NCBI RefSeq assembly: GCF_022601975.1
Contig: NZ_JAKVIR010000001.1
Location: 248,001 to 312,000 of the forward strand
DNA: 64,000 bases
Source: Pontibacter sp. E15-1
Lineage (GTDB): Bacteria; Bacteroidota; Bacteroidia; Cytophagales; Hymenobacteraceae
Direction of reading: 5' to 3'
Under the pieces are notes generated by a model, which made no database searches, was not told where the DNA came from, and worked only from the letters and a program-made list of their open reading frames with translations. Positions 3,052 through 9,766 of the stretch are shown here, piece by piece. The position numbers and the translations under genes were made by a program. Position 1 is the first letter of the stretch, and every line of letters starts with the position of its first letter.

Positions 3052-3394
3052 CTATTCAGTTTGATGAGGCCGCCGTCGATCGGGTAATCGTTTCCGGTGA
3101 TAAAGGCCGCCTCTTCGGAACAGAGGTATAGGAAAAGCCCGGCGATTTCCTCGGGCCTTGCCATGCGGCCGATAGGCTGCGACTTCGAGAGTTTCCCGAA
3201 CATCTCCTCGTTCTGACCGGGATAGTTTTTGGCCAGAAAACCGTCGACGAAGGGGGTATGGACCCGTGCCGGTGAGATACTGTTGCAGCGGATGTTGTCG
3301 TGCCCCCCTGCCGGGCAAAGGCAAGTGCCTCCGCTTTTTCGATACCACTCCCGCCACCCGAAACTGCGGCTAACTGGTTCGTCAGTTGAAACAT
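3052..3394 (-). pseudogene. Internally deleted SDR dehydrogenase (2-keto-3-deoxy-L-fuconate dehydrogenase type)
   Basis: The first ~31 residues (MFQLTNQLAAVSGGGSGIEK) match the Rossmann start of short-chain dehydrogenases. In another frame, the C-terminal ~85 residues follow directly: NSISPARVHTPFVDG, then QPIGRMARPEEIAGLFLYLC and FITGNDYPIDGGLIKLN. Roughly 130 middle residues, including the YxxxK catalytic motif, are missing, and the junction near 3312 is out of frame. The glycine motif is also damaged (GIEKA where GIGKA is usual). The C-terminus resembles SDRs that act on 2-keto-3-deoxy-fuconate, consistent with the nearby FAH remnant. Clearly non-functional. Confidence 0.85.
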
Positions 3395-3469
3395 AGTCTC
3401 GTTTTGTTTACGCTGATGACACATGCTCTCTCAAAGAGAAAAATTGCCATTTGCTATAGAACCTGAATC

Positions 3470-3932: not shown

Positions 3933-4340
3933 TTACCTTCTGCTGTCTTTTACCAACATCCCGATCAGGAACACAGATGCCAGCAGGGCAATATTGGACA
4001 ACAGAAACGCCGGGATCCTGAATTTCCCGTGTTTTATTTTCTTTACATTTTTCGCGCCCTCGAAGGTCAGCTTCTTCGTTTTGTCATCGTCAAAGTCCAC
4101 ATAGTCCCCGACATCGAATTCGTTTTTGTCATCTTCATACCACACTACAGCCTTTACTTTCCTTGTGTCGCACGAGGCAATGTCGTCCTTGCATACCCCG
4201 ATCAGGATCAGGTTTGATTTGCGAGATGCGTCCTCGGTACTTTCAGATGCGACGGTTTCGTATAGCCTACCCTCGTTTTCAAAGGCAAACTGCACACTTT
4301 TATAGGACGGTTTAACGGCAATGACTTTTCCCTGTGGCAT
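3933..4340 (-). CDS. Small protein with MPQGKVIAVKP start and C-terminal membrane helix (unknown family)
   Basis: I do not recognise a named family for this 135-residue protein. It begins MPQGKVIAVKP, a start shared with its two upstream neighbours on the same strand. The body is beta-rich and acidic (WYEDDKNEFDVGDYVDFDDD), compatible with a small OB- or SH3-like barrel, and ends with one hydrophobic helix (about residues 110-130, IPAFLLSNIALLASVFLIGM) and basic residues, so it is probably a tail-anchored membrane protein with the soluble part inside. Blocks ESTED..., SNLILIGV and KKLTFEGAKNVK are also found, diverged, in the 4411-4800 product. Membership of a paralogous trio is seen directly; the fold is inference. 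Confidence 0.7.
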   Translation of the reverse strand: MPQGKVIAVKPSYKSVQFAFENEGRLYETVASESTEDASRKSNLILIGVCKDDIASCDTRKVKAVVWYEDDKNEFDVGDYVDFDDDKTKKLTFEGAKNVKKIKHGKFRIPAFLLSNIALLASVFLIGMLVKDSRR

Positions 4341-4410
4341 GGCGGTAGATATGAAATATATTAAATGAAGCTAGAAGTAAATTTACGTTATATGATTTAA
4401 AACTTACTTT

Positions 4411-4800
4411 TCACATTTTTATCTCATAAACTATCTTCACATTGTACCTTCGCGCTTTAAAATTAATTTTTTTTGAGTTAGAATCAGAACAGGGTAAACC
4501 GGAAGAAATTTCAGGGTATTGACTTGCATCAACACCAAATAATATTATTTCATTTTTTCGAACAGGCGAATTTCCAGAACCACCAGGATGATCTTCGCAA
4601 CTTTCGACATAACCTACTTTTAACAAATTTTCTTCAGTTTTTTCAAATATTGATGGCTGCTCATCTTCAGAATCCAAATTATTATTGAGGAACCTTAAAA
4701 AACCTTCAATCCAATCTGTGCTCATTTCTTCTTTATCTTCTTTTTCATCTTTACTTTTTTTTCTACCAGGTGTAACGGCAATAACGACTCCTCTAGGCAT
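4411..4800 (-). CDS. Paralogue of the preceding small protein, MPRGVVIAVTP start, no membrane helix
   Basis: This 129-residue protein starts MPRGVVIAVTP, like its neighbours. It carries a charged insertion (KSKDEKEDKEE) after the shared start. Then come blocks that line up with the 3933-4340 product: ESCED, KNEIILFGVD, and SKKINFKARRYNVKIV. It lacks the C-terminal helix and is probably soluble. Base composition is clearly more AT-rich than in surrounding genes, which suggests horizontal origin or relaxed constraint. Spacing to the next copy is 70 bases. No known function. Confidence 0.7.
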   Translation of the reverse strand: MPRGVVIAVTPGRKKSKDEKEDKEEMSTDWIEGFLRFLNNNLDSEDEQPSIFEKTEENLLKVGYVESCEDHPGGSGNSPVRKNEIILFGVDASQYPEISSGLPCSDSNSKKINFKARRYNVKIVYEIKM

Positions 4801-4860
4801 AGCTGTATAGTTTTAGTTAGTAGATAATTTTTACATAAGAATTGGCATGCGTACGCTCAT

Positions 4861-4879
4861 CCGGCAGGCAGACTGCCGG
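4861..4879. repeat. Short GC-rich hairpin between small-protein genes
   Basis: A perfect 7-bp stem CCGGCAG / CTGCCGG around GCAGA. It lies 55 bases past the stop of the 59-codon gene at 4934-5110 on the minus strand. There is no T-run on that side, so a terminator role is doubtful. Confidence 0.35.
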
Positions 4880-4933
4880 TAAAACCGCTGCTGAATTGCA
4901 GGTATTCGGATACTGAAGGAAAGGGCCTGGGTC

Positions 4934-5110
4934 TTAGGATTCCACGTCCTTCGCACCTGTCGGATTGGTTGTGGTGTTAGTCGTTCCCGGCAACTTATTT
5001 ATGGGAGAAGTCGGTTGTGTGTTGCTGCTGTTCTGCACGGATTCTTCGTCTGTCTGACTAACTCTTGAGGTCATTGTTGGCTTTACGGGCACTACTTTTC
5101 CTTGTGGCAT
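4934..5110 (-). CDS. 58-residue protein with MPQGKVVPVKP start (third member of the trio)
   Basis: An ATG at 5110 opens a 58-codon frame ending in TAA at 4934. The product begins MPQGKVVPVKP, matching the two downstream neighbours, and continues as a low-complexity Ser/Thr/Asn/Pro-rich tail ending GAKDVES. The tail has no predicted fold or membrane segment. The shared start makes it credible despite its size; it may be a truncated paralogue in which only the N-terminal module survives, or a real short partner. It is divergent from the propeller-cyclase gene, with ~135 AT-rich bases between. Confidence 0.6.
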   Translation of the reverse strand: MPQGKVVPVKPTMTSRVSQTDEESVQNSSNTQPTSPINKLPGTTNTTTNPTGAKDVES

Positions 5111-5165
5111 AATACAAATATTTAGATAGTTAACTCCTGATATTCAGGCTGTATTTTCTGCTTAT

Positions 5166-5197
5166 ACGTTAAAAGTACAAAATGATACCTATTTTTG
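5166..5197 (+). promoter_or_regulatory. Candidate Bacteroidetes-type promoter for the propeller-cyclase gene
   Basis: TATTTTTG at 5190-5197 fits the -7 consensus TAnnTTTG of Bacteroidetes. The -33 element is only weakly matched (GTTAAAA near 5168). This would give a leader of about 40 bases before the ATG at 5245. Confidence 0.35.
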
Positions 5198-5244
5198 TAT
5201 AAATTTAGTATACATTTAATATAATTACTTCAAAGGATATTACA

Positions 5245-8200
5245 ATGTTAAAACATATAGTTGCCACTCTCCTTTTCGTGTTAGTGTCTACCTATGTGCT
5301 GGCACAGCTAGGGAACCCTTTCGTCCAAAGTTTCCCACCGACGGCTTACCAAAGTTATGCCTATATCTCGAGCCCGCAGAACTGGGGCATCGTGCAGGAC
5401 AACCGTGGGATCATCTATGTGAGTAACACAAGCGGTGTGCTGGAGTATGATGGGCTGAACTGGCGCATGGTGGCTGGCACGGCGGGGCTTGGGCGCACCC
5501 AGCTCGCCCGGAACAGCGAAGGAAAGATTTTTGCCTGCAGCAGCACGGATATGGGTTTTCTTAGCCCCGACTCCGCCGGCAAAATGCAATTTGTTTCTTT
5601 GCTCCCCCGGTTACGAGGAGATCAGGCCAACCTCGACTTTAAAAAAGCGGCTGCCGTAAGCCGCGATGTATACTTTCTCACAGAGAACAAACTGTTCCGC
5701 TGGACCGGCACTCACTTTCGGATCTGGCGCAGCGAAGCGGGTTACTCGCGTATTTTCTCGATCCACAACAGGCTCTATGTGGTTGAAAAAGAAAAAGGCA
5801 TCCTCCTGCTGGAGCACGACCGCTTCCTTACCTTGCCCGGTAGTGAAGGAATAAAGGGCTTGATGGTATCGGCTTTACTGCCTTTGCCTGCCACCAAAGC
5901 CTCTACGCTTAATTTTCTCATCGCCACATACGAAAGCGGTTTGTACAGGTACAGAGACCATACCCTGGAAAAATTGAGCCCCACATCCATTATGAGTGAG
6001 ATATCTTTTTTGCACGGCATCAGTTTGTCCGACGGGACCTTTGCTTTGGCTACACAGGGTGCCGGCATACTGATTCTGGACCAGGAAGGACGAGTAAAAA
6101 AAGTGATCGATCAGGAAACCGGCCTGAACGATAATACCGCGATGGCGCTGTGCATAGACCAGGAAGGCGGCCTTTGGGCAGCATTGAACAAGGGCATCAG
6201 CCGCATCGACTACCCCTCCCCGATTTCCTACCTTAACAAATCCACCGGACTCGACGGCATTGTGCTGGACATACTCAAGAAAGGCCCCTTACTGTATGTT
6301 GGCACTTCTTCCGGAGTTCATATTGCGAGTGAACTGGACCCGACACCTACCTTCCGAAAATTACCGCTGTTGCAGAAGGAGGTATGGAAAATAGTGGATG
6401 CGGGCGATACCCTGCTGCTTGCCAACTCAAAAGGCATCTATACCCTGGCGGACAGTTCTTTGCACCGTGTCTCGCCGGTTGGGGGGAATATCACTTACAA
6501 AACAATCCACCGCTCCACCGTGTACCCGGCCCGGTTTTACATTGGCACTTCAGGCGGCCTCGCCTTACTAACCCACCGGAGTGGCGAATGGAAATGGGAG
6601 GGAAACATAAAAGCCGTGAAACATCCGGTAACCTCGCTGGTGCAGGACAGGGCAGGCAAAATCTGGGCGTCCAGCGATACCAGTATCTCCATTATAGCCG
6701 ATGCAAAGGAATATGGGCTCAAACCTCCTGTCTTGAACCTGAAACTGTCGGAACGCATCTTGAATGACTTTGATCAGTTGCCTTTGTATGCTGTGAAAGG
6801 TAAAATTTACCTTGGCACCAGCAAAGGTCTCTACAGTTTTAAAAAGGATGGCCAGAAATACCGCTTACTGCCCGATGCCACCTTTGGAAAAAGGTTTGCA
6901 GGCGGCACCAAGGAGGCCATTAACCTGACCGAAGACCGCAACGGCAATGTATGGCTTACCTCTGAGTTTAGAACCGGAATGTTGCGCAAAACGGCACAGA
7001 ACAGCTATACCTGGGATACCATCCCACTCAGCAGGGTACCCCGCGTGGATGTGTGGACCATATACCCGGACGCAGCCGGTGTGGTGTGGCTGGCCACCAC
7101 CGAAGGCATTTTCAGCTATAACCCTTTTGTGCCGAAGAATTACAGAACACAGCAGAAAACCTTACTTCGTAAAGTCAATCTGCTCGGCGACTCCACCGTT
7201 TTCTACGGGGCGTTTGCCAACAAAGGCACAGCCACCGTCGCACAGACCCCGCAATTTGAGTTTGTGCTGCCTCATGCCGTTAAATCAATCAGCTTTGAGT
7301 ATACCGCTACTTCCTACGACGCCCCCGGGCAACTGCTCTACAGTTATATGCTGGAGGGGGAGGATGAGAAATGGTCGCTCTGGACCACTGAGACGAAAAG
7401 AGAGTTCACTGGCCTGGACGAGGGCACGTATGTGTTTAAGGTACGCTCGAAGAATATCTATGGCACCGTAAACCAGCCTACGACGTTTGCGTTTACGTCG
7501 CTGCCGCCATTTTACCGGACGTGGTGGGCCTATACCCTGTATGTGGTGCTGTATGGCCTGGTGATCTGGGGCTTCGTTAAGATCAAACACCGCCACCTGA
7601 TCGCCACCCAAAAAAGCCTGGAGAAAGTCGTGCATGAACGCACGGCGCAGTTGGAGGAAGAAAAGAAGAAGTCTGACGACCTGCTCCTAAACATCCTGCC
7701 TTCCGAAACCGCTGAGGAACTGAAGGCCAAAGGCCGTGCCCTGGCCCGCAGCTATAAGGCCGCAACCGTGCTCTTCACTGACTTCAAGGATTTCACAAAA
7801 ATAAGCGAGCACCTGACGCCGGAAGAACTGGTAGCCGTCATCGACTTCTACTTCTGCGCCTTCGACCGCATCATCACCAAGTACAACATCGAGAAAATCA
7901 AAACCATTGGCGATGCCTACATGTGCGCGGGCGGCATCCCGAACCCGGGGGCCAACACCCCCACCGATGTGGTGAAGGCTGGGCTGGAGATTCTGGACTT
8001 TGTGCAAAACCTGAACCCCGATAACAAGCGGCTGAAACATCACAAGTTCGAGATCCGGATCGGCATCCATACCGGGCCGGTGGTGGCGGGCATCGTGGGC
8101 ACCACCAAGTTCGCCTACGACATCTGGGGCGACACCGTGAACACGGCAGCCCGCATGGAGTCGTGCGGCGAGGTAGGCAAAGTGAATATCTCGGGGGCCA

Positions 8201-8322
8201 CCTACACCCTGATCAAAGACGATTTCAGGTGCAGTTACCGCGGCAAGGTAGAGGCAAAAAACAAAGGCGACATCGACATGTACTTTGTGGAGGCCATCGT
8301 GCCGCACCCTGTTTTGCTCTAA
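5245..8322 (+). CDS. Periplasmic beta-propeller sensor fused to class III adenylate cyclase
   Basis: The 1025-residue protein starts with a signal peptide (~20 residues, ending VLAQ). About residues 25-660 are repeated two-component-regulator propeller blades (GIVQDNRGIIYVSNTSGVLEY and similar). Residues ~672-745 form a Y_Y_Y domain, ~759-780 a membrane helix, ~785-830 a coiled coil, and ~835-1015 a class III cyclase domain. Catalytic residues are present: metal-binding D846 and D890, purine-selecting K886 and D959 (a lysine/aspartate pair favouring ATP), and N966 and R970. It should convert an extracytoplasmic signal into cytosolic cAMP. HTCS-like proteins of this layout normally end in a histidine kinase; here the output is a cyclase. 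It is followed by a strong terminator and appears monocistronic. Confidence 0.9.
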   Translation: MLKHIVATLLFVLVSTYVLAQLGNPFVQSFPPTAYQSYAYISSPQNWGIVQDNRGIIYVSNTSGVLEYDGLNWRMVAGTAGLGRTQLARNSEGKIFACSSTDMGFLSPDSAGKMQFVSLLPRLRGDQANLDFKKAAAVSRDVYFLTENKLFRWTGTHFRIWRSEAGYSRIFSIHNRLYVVEKEKGILLLEHDRFLTLPGSEGIKGLMVSALLPLPATKASTLNFLIATYESGLYRYRDHTLEKLSPTSIMSEISFLHGISLSDGTFALATQGAGILILDQEGRVKKVIDQETGLNDNTAMALCIDQEGGLWAALNKGISRIDYPSPISYLNKSTGLDGIVLDILKKGPLLYVGTSSGVHIASELDPTPTFRKLPLLQKEVWKIVDAGDTLLLANSKGIYTLADSSLHRVSPVGGNITYKTIHRSTVYPARFYIGTSGGLALLTHRSGEWKWEGNIKAVKHPVTSLVQDRAGKIWASSDTSISIIADAKEYGLKPPVLNLKLSERILNDFDQLPLYAVKGKIYLGTSKGLYSFKKDGQKYRLLPDATFGKRFAGGTKEAINLTEDRNGNVWLTSEFRTGMLRKTAQNSYTWDTIPLSRVPRVDVWTIYPDAAGVVWLATTEGIFSYNPFVPKNYRTQQKTLLRKVNLLGDSTVFYGAFANKGTATVAQTPQFEFVLPHAVKSISFEYTATSYDAPGQLLYSYMLEGEDEKWSLWTTETKREFTGLDEGTYVFKVRSKNIYGTVNQPTTFAFTSLPPFYRTWWAYTLYVVLYGLVIWGFVKIKHRHLIATQKSLEKVVHERTAQLEEEKKKSDDLLLNILPSETAEELKAKGRALARSYKAATVLFTDFKDFTKISEHLTPEELVAVIDFYFCAFDRIITKYNIEKIKTIGDAYMCAGGIPNPGANTPTDVVKAGLEILDFVQNLNPDNKRLKHHKFEIRIGIHTGPVVAGIVGTTKFAYDIWGDTVNTAARMESCGEVGKVNISGATYTLIKDDFRCSYRGKVEAKNKGDIDMYFVEAIVPHPVLL

Positions 8323-8420: not shown

Positions 8421-9557
8421 TTAAAAAAGGCCCAGAAACTTCTTCTTTTCGTAGATGTGGTTCAGGTCTTTCTCGAACAGGGTATAGTCATCGTGGTAAA
8501 ACCTCATGAAATCCGGGATGCTCACCTGACCCGGGTAAGGGGCGTAATAATGCGTTGGGCTTCTGATGTCGTTCCGCCATACCAGCACATAGGAAAGGCG
8601 CATGTCGTCGCGCTTCATGGTCCTGAGCAGGGTGTTGGTCCACCACGCGGTATCGGGTATGGATTCGAGGCCTGTTTCGGTGAAGGCCGCCAGCTTTCCG
8701 GCCTTTTTGGCGTAGTCCGACACGATTTTCAGCTTCATGGCGGCTGTGTCGACAGCATAGCGGTCGCGGCCCATGTCGCCGTAGTTGTCCATACCCACCA
8801 TATCCACCCACGCGTCGCCGGGGTACCGCTCCAGAAACTCGGCCTCCGTCCGGAACTTGTTATCCGGGGTGAAGGCATATATAAAATTGTGCACATCCAG
8901 GCTATCGCGCAGGTAGGACACCGTGAATTGCCACAGCGAGATAAACTCTTCGCGGGATGCATAGGGCTTACCCCACCAGAACCAGCCGCCGTCAAACTCA
9001 TGGAAAGGACGGAAAATAACAGGGGCAAGCTTTCCGTCGGCCCCTCTGACGCTGTGCGCCCACGCGCCGATGCCGTCCAGTATCTCCTTGTATTGCGCGT
9101 GCGCCTCGCCACCAGGTATGATGTAGCGCACGGCAGGCAGCGAGAGCGAATCGACCCAGTAGAACCCGCCCGGAGACACCGGGTTCGAAAAATGCCAGGC
9201 CGCGGTGGTCACGCCGCCACGGTTATAGGTATCCACCACGTTCTGCCGCACCGCCTCTTTGGCCTGTGCAATGGCCTGGGGAGATCGCCCGGAAAACCCG
9301 CTGAAATCAACGCCGACCACCGCAGGGTGCGATCCCGTGACGGAAGCCACGTCGGAGCGGTTTTGGTCGCCGGACCATCCGTGGCCATACTCAGTGGCGT
9401 GCTGGTGCCCGAAAAGGGTATGCTTCTTCGAGAGCTTGCCTAAATTTTGGTACAGGGCTTTGGTTTCGCTGGTAGCCGCTGCGTCAATTGGTTTAGAGGC
9501 GCTGCAGCCCACCAAAAACAGCGCGGCCAGTAAAGGCAGGAGAAATAGCTTTTTCAT
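8421..9557 (-). CDS. Glycoside hydrolase family 26 lipoprotein (beta-mannanase type)
   Basis: ATG at 9557 gives a lipoprotein signal peptide, MKKLFLLPLLAALFLVGC, with the lipobox cysteine; ATGs further upstream at 9572 and 9635 would spoil it. The mature protein is a GH26 (beta/alpha)8 barrel. The acid/base glutamate is in RPFHEFDGGWFWWG and the nucleophile glutamate in FTETGLES. GH26 enzymes hydrolyse beta-1,4-mannan, with some acting on beta-1,3-xylan or mixed glucan. The enzyme is probably anchored to the outer membrane or facing the periplasm. No SusC/SusD pair or other carbohydrate-active gene flanks it, so it is an orphan rather than part of a polysaccharide utilisation locus. Confidence 0.9.
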   Translation of the reverse strand: MKKLFLLPLLAALFLVGCSASKPIDAAATSETKALYQNLGKLSKKHTLFGHQHATEYGHGWSGDQNRSDVASVTGSHPAVVGVDFSGFSGRSPQAIAQAKEAVRQNVVDTYNRGGVTTAAWHFSNPVSPGGFYWVDSLSLPAVRYIIPGGEAHAQYKEILDGIGAWAHSVRGADGKLAPVIFRPFHEFDGGWFWWGKPYASREEFISLWQFTVSYLRDSLDVHNFIYAFTPDNKFRTEAEFLERYPGDAWVDMVGMDNYGDMGRDRYAVDTAAMKLKIVSDYAKKAGKLAAFTETGLESIPDTAWWTNTLLRTMKRDDMRLSYVLVWRNDIRSPTHYYAPYPGQVSIPDFMRFYHDDYTLFEKDLNHIYEKKKFLGLF

Positions 9558-9766
9558 GAATGCTTTCTGCATGTTGAGGCAGTTAAGGTACCACCACACG
9601 CGCTTTTTAACAAGGCATCCACGAAGCCAAGGCATCTATCATCCCATTAAATCACAATAACAAAATGGATTAATGCCAAAATACAAAGTATATACTAAAG
9701 TATGCTAAAATACTATTATGCGCTCTTGGGACTTCTTTCTGTAAAATCTGAAGCTGAACTGAAGTA

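Follow-up and report, generated by a model that had tools for sequence, protein, structure and literature searches.

Three consecutive minus-strand genes whose products open with the motif MP[Q/R]GxVxxVxP, here called MPxG genes, belong to a real and narrowly distributed set that has no match in the curated families searched and is tied to a sensor of a known kind. Their constant partner is this signalling sensor gene, which is transcribed divergently from them and which the first-pass annotation of the window (the whole stretch of 64,000 nucleotides analysed, from the 5.59 Mb genome of Pontibacter sp. E15-1, G000) had not connected to them. The genetic linkage between the two is firm, and we infer a mechanism in which the three MPxG genes and the divergent gene would form one accessory cAMP or phosphorelay module, the small proteins acting as cytoplasmic partners with a shared docking peptide and swappable bodies; we rate the chances of this reading as about even. 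The features concerned are the following.

3933-4340, minus strand: MPxG type 1, 135 aa; 11-residue start, variable linker, beta-rich-looking body and predicted C-terminal hydrophobic helix
4308-4340, minus strand: start module of type 1, MPQGKVIAVKP
4411-4800, minus strand: MPxG type 2, 129 aa; start module, then a soluble body that carries a charged insertion; AT-rich
4768-4800, minus strand: start module of type 2, MPRGVVIAVTP
4934-5110, minus strand: MPxG type 3, 58 aa; start module with Pro at position 8 and a short disordered-looking tail
5078-5110, minus strand: start module of type 3, MPQGKVVPVKP
5111-5244, no strand: divergent intergenic region, presumed shared promoter region, GC 0.22
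5245-8322, plus strand: partner sensor; hydrophobic N-terminus ending in AQ, Reg_prop beta-propeller, Y_Y_Y domain, a single hydrophobic segment seen by eye, and a class III cyclase domain carrying residues of the adenylate type

The coordinates and the three starts given in the first-pass annotation were exact, and the middle gene is indeed as AT-rich as described there, its GC of 0.33 (window 0.558) placing it in the lowest 0.5% of 390-bp windows. The type-2 genes of two other genomes, G014 (GC 0.39) and G035 (GC 0.36), are likewise AT-rich. At 3052-3424 on the minus strand, pieces of an apparent short-chain dehydrogenase gene, read by eye, lie in different frames and are probably a remnant.

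The start is carried by 17 genes at nine loci, 14 of them at eight loci other than the window, and homologues with the same beginning, for which the earlier annotation had proposed a search, thus exist in other genomes, where the copies also cluster beside the constant divergent sensor. Eight of 204 family genomes carry type 1: seven among the 50 genomes of the genus, that of the window included, and one from a second genus. Orthologues of the sensor (E <= 1e-100) occur in nine of these 204, including all eight with type 1, and no type 1 without a sensor orthologue was found among them. One to three MPxG genes are divergent from the sensor at every one of the nine orthologue loci, which are related to each other, so that the linkage counts are not independent. 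Identities of type 1 and of the sensor correlate (r = 0.71 over 28 pairs), although shared ancestry would by itself produce such a value, which may also depend on a single close pair.

Beyond the family, the type-1 profile detected no credible further copy in 395 genomes of the class (G000 among them). Apart from the window there were three matches, with E from 3.2e-4 to 0.0047, which we took as chance: one is broken by three stops, another lies in an apparent lysozyme-type enzyme and the third in a protein that is longer than type 1 and dissimilar to it. An exact-peptide scan of genome contigs with six stretches matched 71 stretches, one of which was confirmed. Among distant homologues of the sensor (28-55% over the matched part), the full start motif was seen at none of 22 loci and looser MPxG matches at three, the 1.5 kb flank probably stopping short of the gene start at two of the 22 (L097, L104). 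The genome of the window itself carries a second sensor (G000:C53:4157-6679; L069, L071), 31% identical, with no MPxG gene within its 1.5 kb flanks. With regard to an empty site, the helicase-side flank was taken from 30 of 48 matching genomes, and in none of these 30 did the gene from the other side (window 8421-9635) lie within 1.5 kb.

Gene order at the module is regular. The large divergent gene adjoins every cluster in an all-against-all comparison of seven Pontibacter loci, and does so likewise in G195 and G180. Other neighbours vary: in the seven Pontibacter loci several close ones are common only to G000 and G036 and to G028 and G014, while two neighbour genes of G014 and G047 show a more distant relationship (26-50%) and lie at different distances. 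Type 1 is the last gene in all six multi-gene clusters and stands alone in G028 and G047; type 3, where a multi-gene cluster has it (three cases), is always nearest the sensor. Between the sensor and the first MPxG start lie 134-149 bp at seven of the nine loci, those at which the sensor match begins at residue 1.

Individual loci show further peculiarities. In G036 the intergenic DNA between type 2K and type 1 (L063 706-757) contains an inverted repeat whose 24-bp arms match perfectly around a loop of 4 bases, and its arm is present only in G036 loci among the locus DNA compared. Beside the module of G195 (L059 5318-9099) and G180 (L070 1883-5739) are genes for an HD-domain protein, a cNMP-binding protein and a HEAT-repeat protein of 921-954 residues, assigned by domain scan for the G195 copies and by sequence similarity for those of G180; the cNMP-binding and HD-domain genes of G195, a few kilobases off, may represent a separate neighbourhood.

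In the partner, Reg_prop repeats and Y_Y_Y score above the cut-off in all nine sensors, and two solved two-component sensors of the Reg_prop/Y_Y_Y type, 3v9f and 4a2l, match the sensor of the window. The output domain is a class III nucleotide cyclase in seven of the nine and a histidine kinase in two (G035 and G047). Metal aspartates and the adenine-type Lys/Asp pair are found in all seven cyclase versions, and six of the seven have in addition both transition-state residues, Asn and Arg; we take the Lys/Asp pair to be adenine-specific, and likewise assume the roles of the metal aspartates and of Asn/Arg. Judged by these residues, the sensor cyclase probably makes cAMP. In the G002 sensor (L026 6032-9112) a Cys replaces the conserved Arg (NTAACMES), and the G002 cyclase may therefore be weak or dead. 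As to the kinase versions, the sensor of G035 (L024 14704-17578) has genes for another histidine kinase, a receiver protein and a receiver-cyclase protein downstream, and this response-regulator/cyclase may mean that a cyclic nucleotide output is kept there; at G047 no cyclase was seen among the neighbours listed, one of which was domain-scanned. A hydrophobic N-terminus followed by AQ is visible by eye in all nine sensors, which fits the rule that in Bacteroidetes a Gln is exposed after signal peptide cleavage (PMC5837995).

Turning to the small proteins, the common start stands out from chance in the genome of the window, where four sites match a degenerate DNA pattern encoding MPxGx[VIM]xx[VIM]xP, three of them being the window genes, and no site matches its reversed control. 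The same pattern gave 28 matches in the 50 genus genomes, 14 in the clusters and 14 scattered, the latter being not rarer than the matches of the reversed control (3). Thirteen of the scattered 14 were read (all except L038) and none resembles the MPxG family; 11 gave a reading frame and two (L029, L040) none. Six scattered matches have another continuation in common (RPAA.AYTY). In 390 genomes of the order, the pattern had 32 matches, 13 in known clusters and 19 elsewhere, with about 21 for the reversed control (hand count), and it revealed no second tandem MPxG cluster; the sole match read outside the family, L072, is out of frame.

Met1, Pro2, Gly4 and Pro11 are identical in all 17 MPxG genes. 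Position 3 is Gln (14) or Arg (3), position 6 Val (15) or Ile (2) and position 8 Ala (13) or Pro (4). Across the eight type-1 orthologues, the synonymous share of all synonymous and nonsynonymous differences is 0.76 at codons 2-11, whereas linker, body and tail reach 0.11, 0.29 and 0.33, respectively; the start peptide is thereby the most constrained part of type 1. At codons 6, 7, 8 and 11 of type 1 every difference is synonymous, and Pro11 is encoded by all four of its codons over the 17 genes. Hence, as judged from these substitutions, the start module is conserved by selection at the protein level. The first 12 bases may be subject to a further constraint, possibly linked to translation start, on top of that acting on the peptide: Gly4 is GGA (window 4329-4331, 4789-4791 and 5099-5101) and Pro2 either CCA or CCT in every one of the 17 genes. 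These genes are related and therefore non-independent draws, and yet other conserved positions differ in codon. For comparison, GGA accounts for 13.9% of Gly codons inside genes, for 8 of 30 within codons 6-15 and for 28 of 114 in the bodies of MPxG genes. Codons 2-5 of ordinary genes, which match best as a background, give a very small sample with a less extreme bias (GGA for one of two Gly, CCA/CCT for five of seven Pro). Upstream of the MPxG start codons some positions are A-rich, as is ordinary for start regions in Bacteroidota.

Behind the start follow four kinds of body. Type 1 (eight loci) continues with linker, body and hydrophobic helix; type 2 is found in the window, G014 and G035; type 2K in G036 and G002; and type 3, of 50-58 residues, acidic and with Pro at position 8, in the window, G036, G195 and G180. 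What the first-pass annotation had called a fixed N-terminal module with diversified bodies is borne out by alignments, which share the start only. The profile alignment of types 1 and 2 covers 16 columns at the start, BLAST between the two finds the first 11 residues and a meaningless four-residue match, and types 1 and 2K have just the first 11 residues in common. The internal blocks that it had also seen in genes 1 and 2 did not hold up, since with the start removed 3 of 100 column shuffles score at least as high as the type-1 and type-2 bodies, whose alignment extends over 7 columns (17 of 100 for type 1 and type 2K); moreover, gene 1 has its ES.ED block in the linker, which type-1 orthologues do not conserve.

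A membrane segment in type 1, proposed earlier as an anchor, is likely: a hydrophobic stretch occupies the C-terminal region of all eight sequences, and the AlphaFold model of type 1 places a helix at 111-134, albeit with low confidence (mean pLDDT 41). Both AlphaFold models, obtained from two-row alignments, are of low confidence (means 49.7 and 41.4). No signal peptide was seen by eye in the MPxG proteins, which should consequently stay in the cytoplasm, away from the exported propeller.

As the earlier annotation had supposed, the curated families searched do not account for these proteins. None of the 15 of 17 MPxG proteins scanned (all but type 3 of G195 and G180) scored above cut-off in Pfam, and the three window proteins had no match in NCBIfam. 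PHROGs returned weak matches only for five proteins (best 0.024). Type 1 bears a weak resemblance to cold-shock proteins. When the type-1 profile was compared with PDB sequences, the sole match was the cold-shock protein Unr (E 0.86, no single stretch being significant), and three of eight type-1 proteins matched Pfam CSDE1 below cut-off (best E 0.0023). In bits, type 1 reached 12.5 for CSD and at most 18.4 for CSDE1, against a cut-off of 27; five of the eight matched neither, and other members have equally weak matches to unrelated models (E 0.054-0.11). Compared with the cold-shock proteins of its own genome, the C-terminal half of type 1 scored above 100 of 100 shuffles, at a profile probability of 13-22%, while the scores of types 2 and 2K were reached by 32 and 27 of 100 shuffles, respectively. 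On strands 2 and 3, cold-shock domains carry the RNP-type motifs G[FY]GFI and FVH. These were seen by eye in none of the eight type-1 sequences, whereas five of five own-genome cold-shock proteins, taken as a yardstick, have them. We consider an OB-like body in type 1 plausible from these similarities, and have rejected type 1 as a member of the cold-shock domain family, given the missing RNP motifs and scores below the Pfam cut-off. In type 2K, the KOW model weakly matches the body of G036 (E 0.085 over 14 residues, below cut-off) and does not match that of G002.

In the mechanism that we propose, the divergent neighbour would be an inner-membrane receptor, its exported beta-propeller/Y_Y_Y sensor linked through a single membrane helix to a class III cyclase in the cytoplasm. 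It would read something outside the inner membrane and drive the cyclase to make cAMP, or in two relatives a phosphorelay. The MPxG proteins would be its dedicated cytoplasmic partners, with the C-terminal helix keeping type 1 anchored to the membrane. Their first eleven residues would form a short peptide docking at a single binding site common to all, and the remainder a swappable working part, namely a membrane-anchored beta-barrel-like body in type 1, a soluble one in types 2 and 2K and an acidic tail in type 3. We infer a docking function, and interchangeable bodies, because the start peptide is the sole part common to all members and one locus keeps little else: at G180 the only MPxG gene is an acidic type 3 of 50 residues, which leaves the start motif as the shared minimum. 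The peptide would thus bind something, presumably at a site on or near the sensor, and the bodies would tune or carry the signal. The sensor versions have the propeller, Y_Y_Y and membrane region in common and differ in the output domain, and the propeller should be out of reach for cytoplasmic proteins, so that any obvious docking surface present in both versions would have to lie at the membrane helix or its edge. The docking site may accordingly be at this edge of the sensor, or on another protein.

The main rival to docking is that the MPxG genes are mere targets of the sensor, the pathway of which would switch the divergent promoter, while the proteins act elsewhere, for example on RNA or in the envelope, and their start binds some other component of the cell. 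The divergent layout and the intergenic region of 134-149 bp at the seven measurable loci, AT-rich in the window, would suit this explanation, and a link through expression would also fit the exchange of the output domain while the MPxG genes stay. The weak cold-shock-like and KOW-like bodies, in turn, suggest nucleic-acid binding. However, no regulator binding site was identified, and regulation by itself gives no reason why type 1 is never found apart from the sensor in the 204 family genomes. We regard this explanation as a serious possibility that nevertheless falls short of likely.

Far less probable is a conflict or defence module in which a Pycsar-like cyclase would work with small membrane and soluble effectors diversifying under attack. 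Pycsar combines the PycC cyclase with a membrane or TIR effector, and the present locus likewise has a cyclase gene beside a small protein with a hydrophobic helix; the patchy distribution and strongly differing bodies would fit as well. Five PADLOC models of PycC match the sensor (E 1.8e-15 to 0.0075), but only in its C-terminal cyclase part (residues ~792-1004), as expected of any class III cyclase. Here, unlike in Pycsar, the cyclase is fused to a sensor and lies behind its exported portion, is replaced by a kinase in two versions and is arranged divergently, and no cyclic-nucleotide-binding effector was found: Pfam detected no such domain in 15 of 17 MPxG proteins and PADLOC none in five. 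These five small proteins had no PADLOC match of any sort, and type 1 had no match on plasmids and no confirmed relative in viral contigs. Of the interacting, targeting or conflict roles entertained in the first-pass annotation, the conflict part is unsupported on these grounds.

Least probable of all, in our estimation, is that the common start works chiefly at the nucleic-acid level, in translation or mRNA control, with the peptide as a by-product, for although the uniform Gly4 and Pro2 codons would agree with it, the purely synonymous differences at type-1 codons 6, 7, 8 and 11 and the free codon choice at Pro11 do not, the comparison at codons 2-5 is tiny and less extreme, and the A-rich upstream positions look ordinary.

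Returning to docking, a bolder form of the proposal is that ~MP[QR]Gx[VI]x[AP][VI]xP constitutes a portable docking tag recruiting unrelated bodies (membrane-anchored OB-like, KOW-like or acidic disordered) to a propeller-sensor receptor, and so permits plug-in rewiring of a cAMP or phosphorelay receptor. This we put forward tentatively and consider rather doubtful; to our knowledge, such rewiring has no described counterpart. In the literature covered (titles and abstract openings, most subscription journals lying outside its scope) there is no description of a module of MPxG proteins and sensor cyclase, which is weak evidence of absence. Apart from the question of docking, the nine loci present a propeller sensor whose output is a cyclase at seven and a kinase at two, while the set of small proteins stays. 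Bacteroidota have many propeller sensors, best known as kinases. If the small proteins do dock, they would offer a defined eleven-residue peptide open to direct mutational test.

Set beside described systems, the small proteins have partial likenesses. In its C-terminal half, type 1 is similar to the final strands of the cold-shock domain (CSD/CSDE1), from which the protein differs by its extra linker, its hydrophobic helix and the lack of G[FY]GFI and FVH; the likeness to KOW motif proteins is confined to the single type-2K body of G036. The partner stands closest to the Reg_prop/Y_Y_Y sensors of Bacteroidota, hybrid two-component proteins of which we take BT4663 to be an example. The sensor of the window has the same propeller and Y_Y_Y domains, whereas in its group the output is mostly a cyclase, with a histidine kinase in the two exceptions, and small divergent MPxG genes lie alongside.
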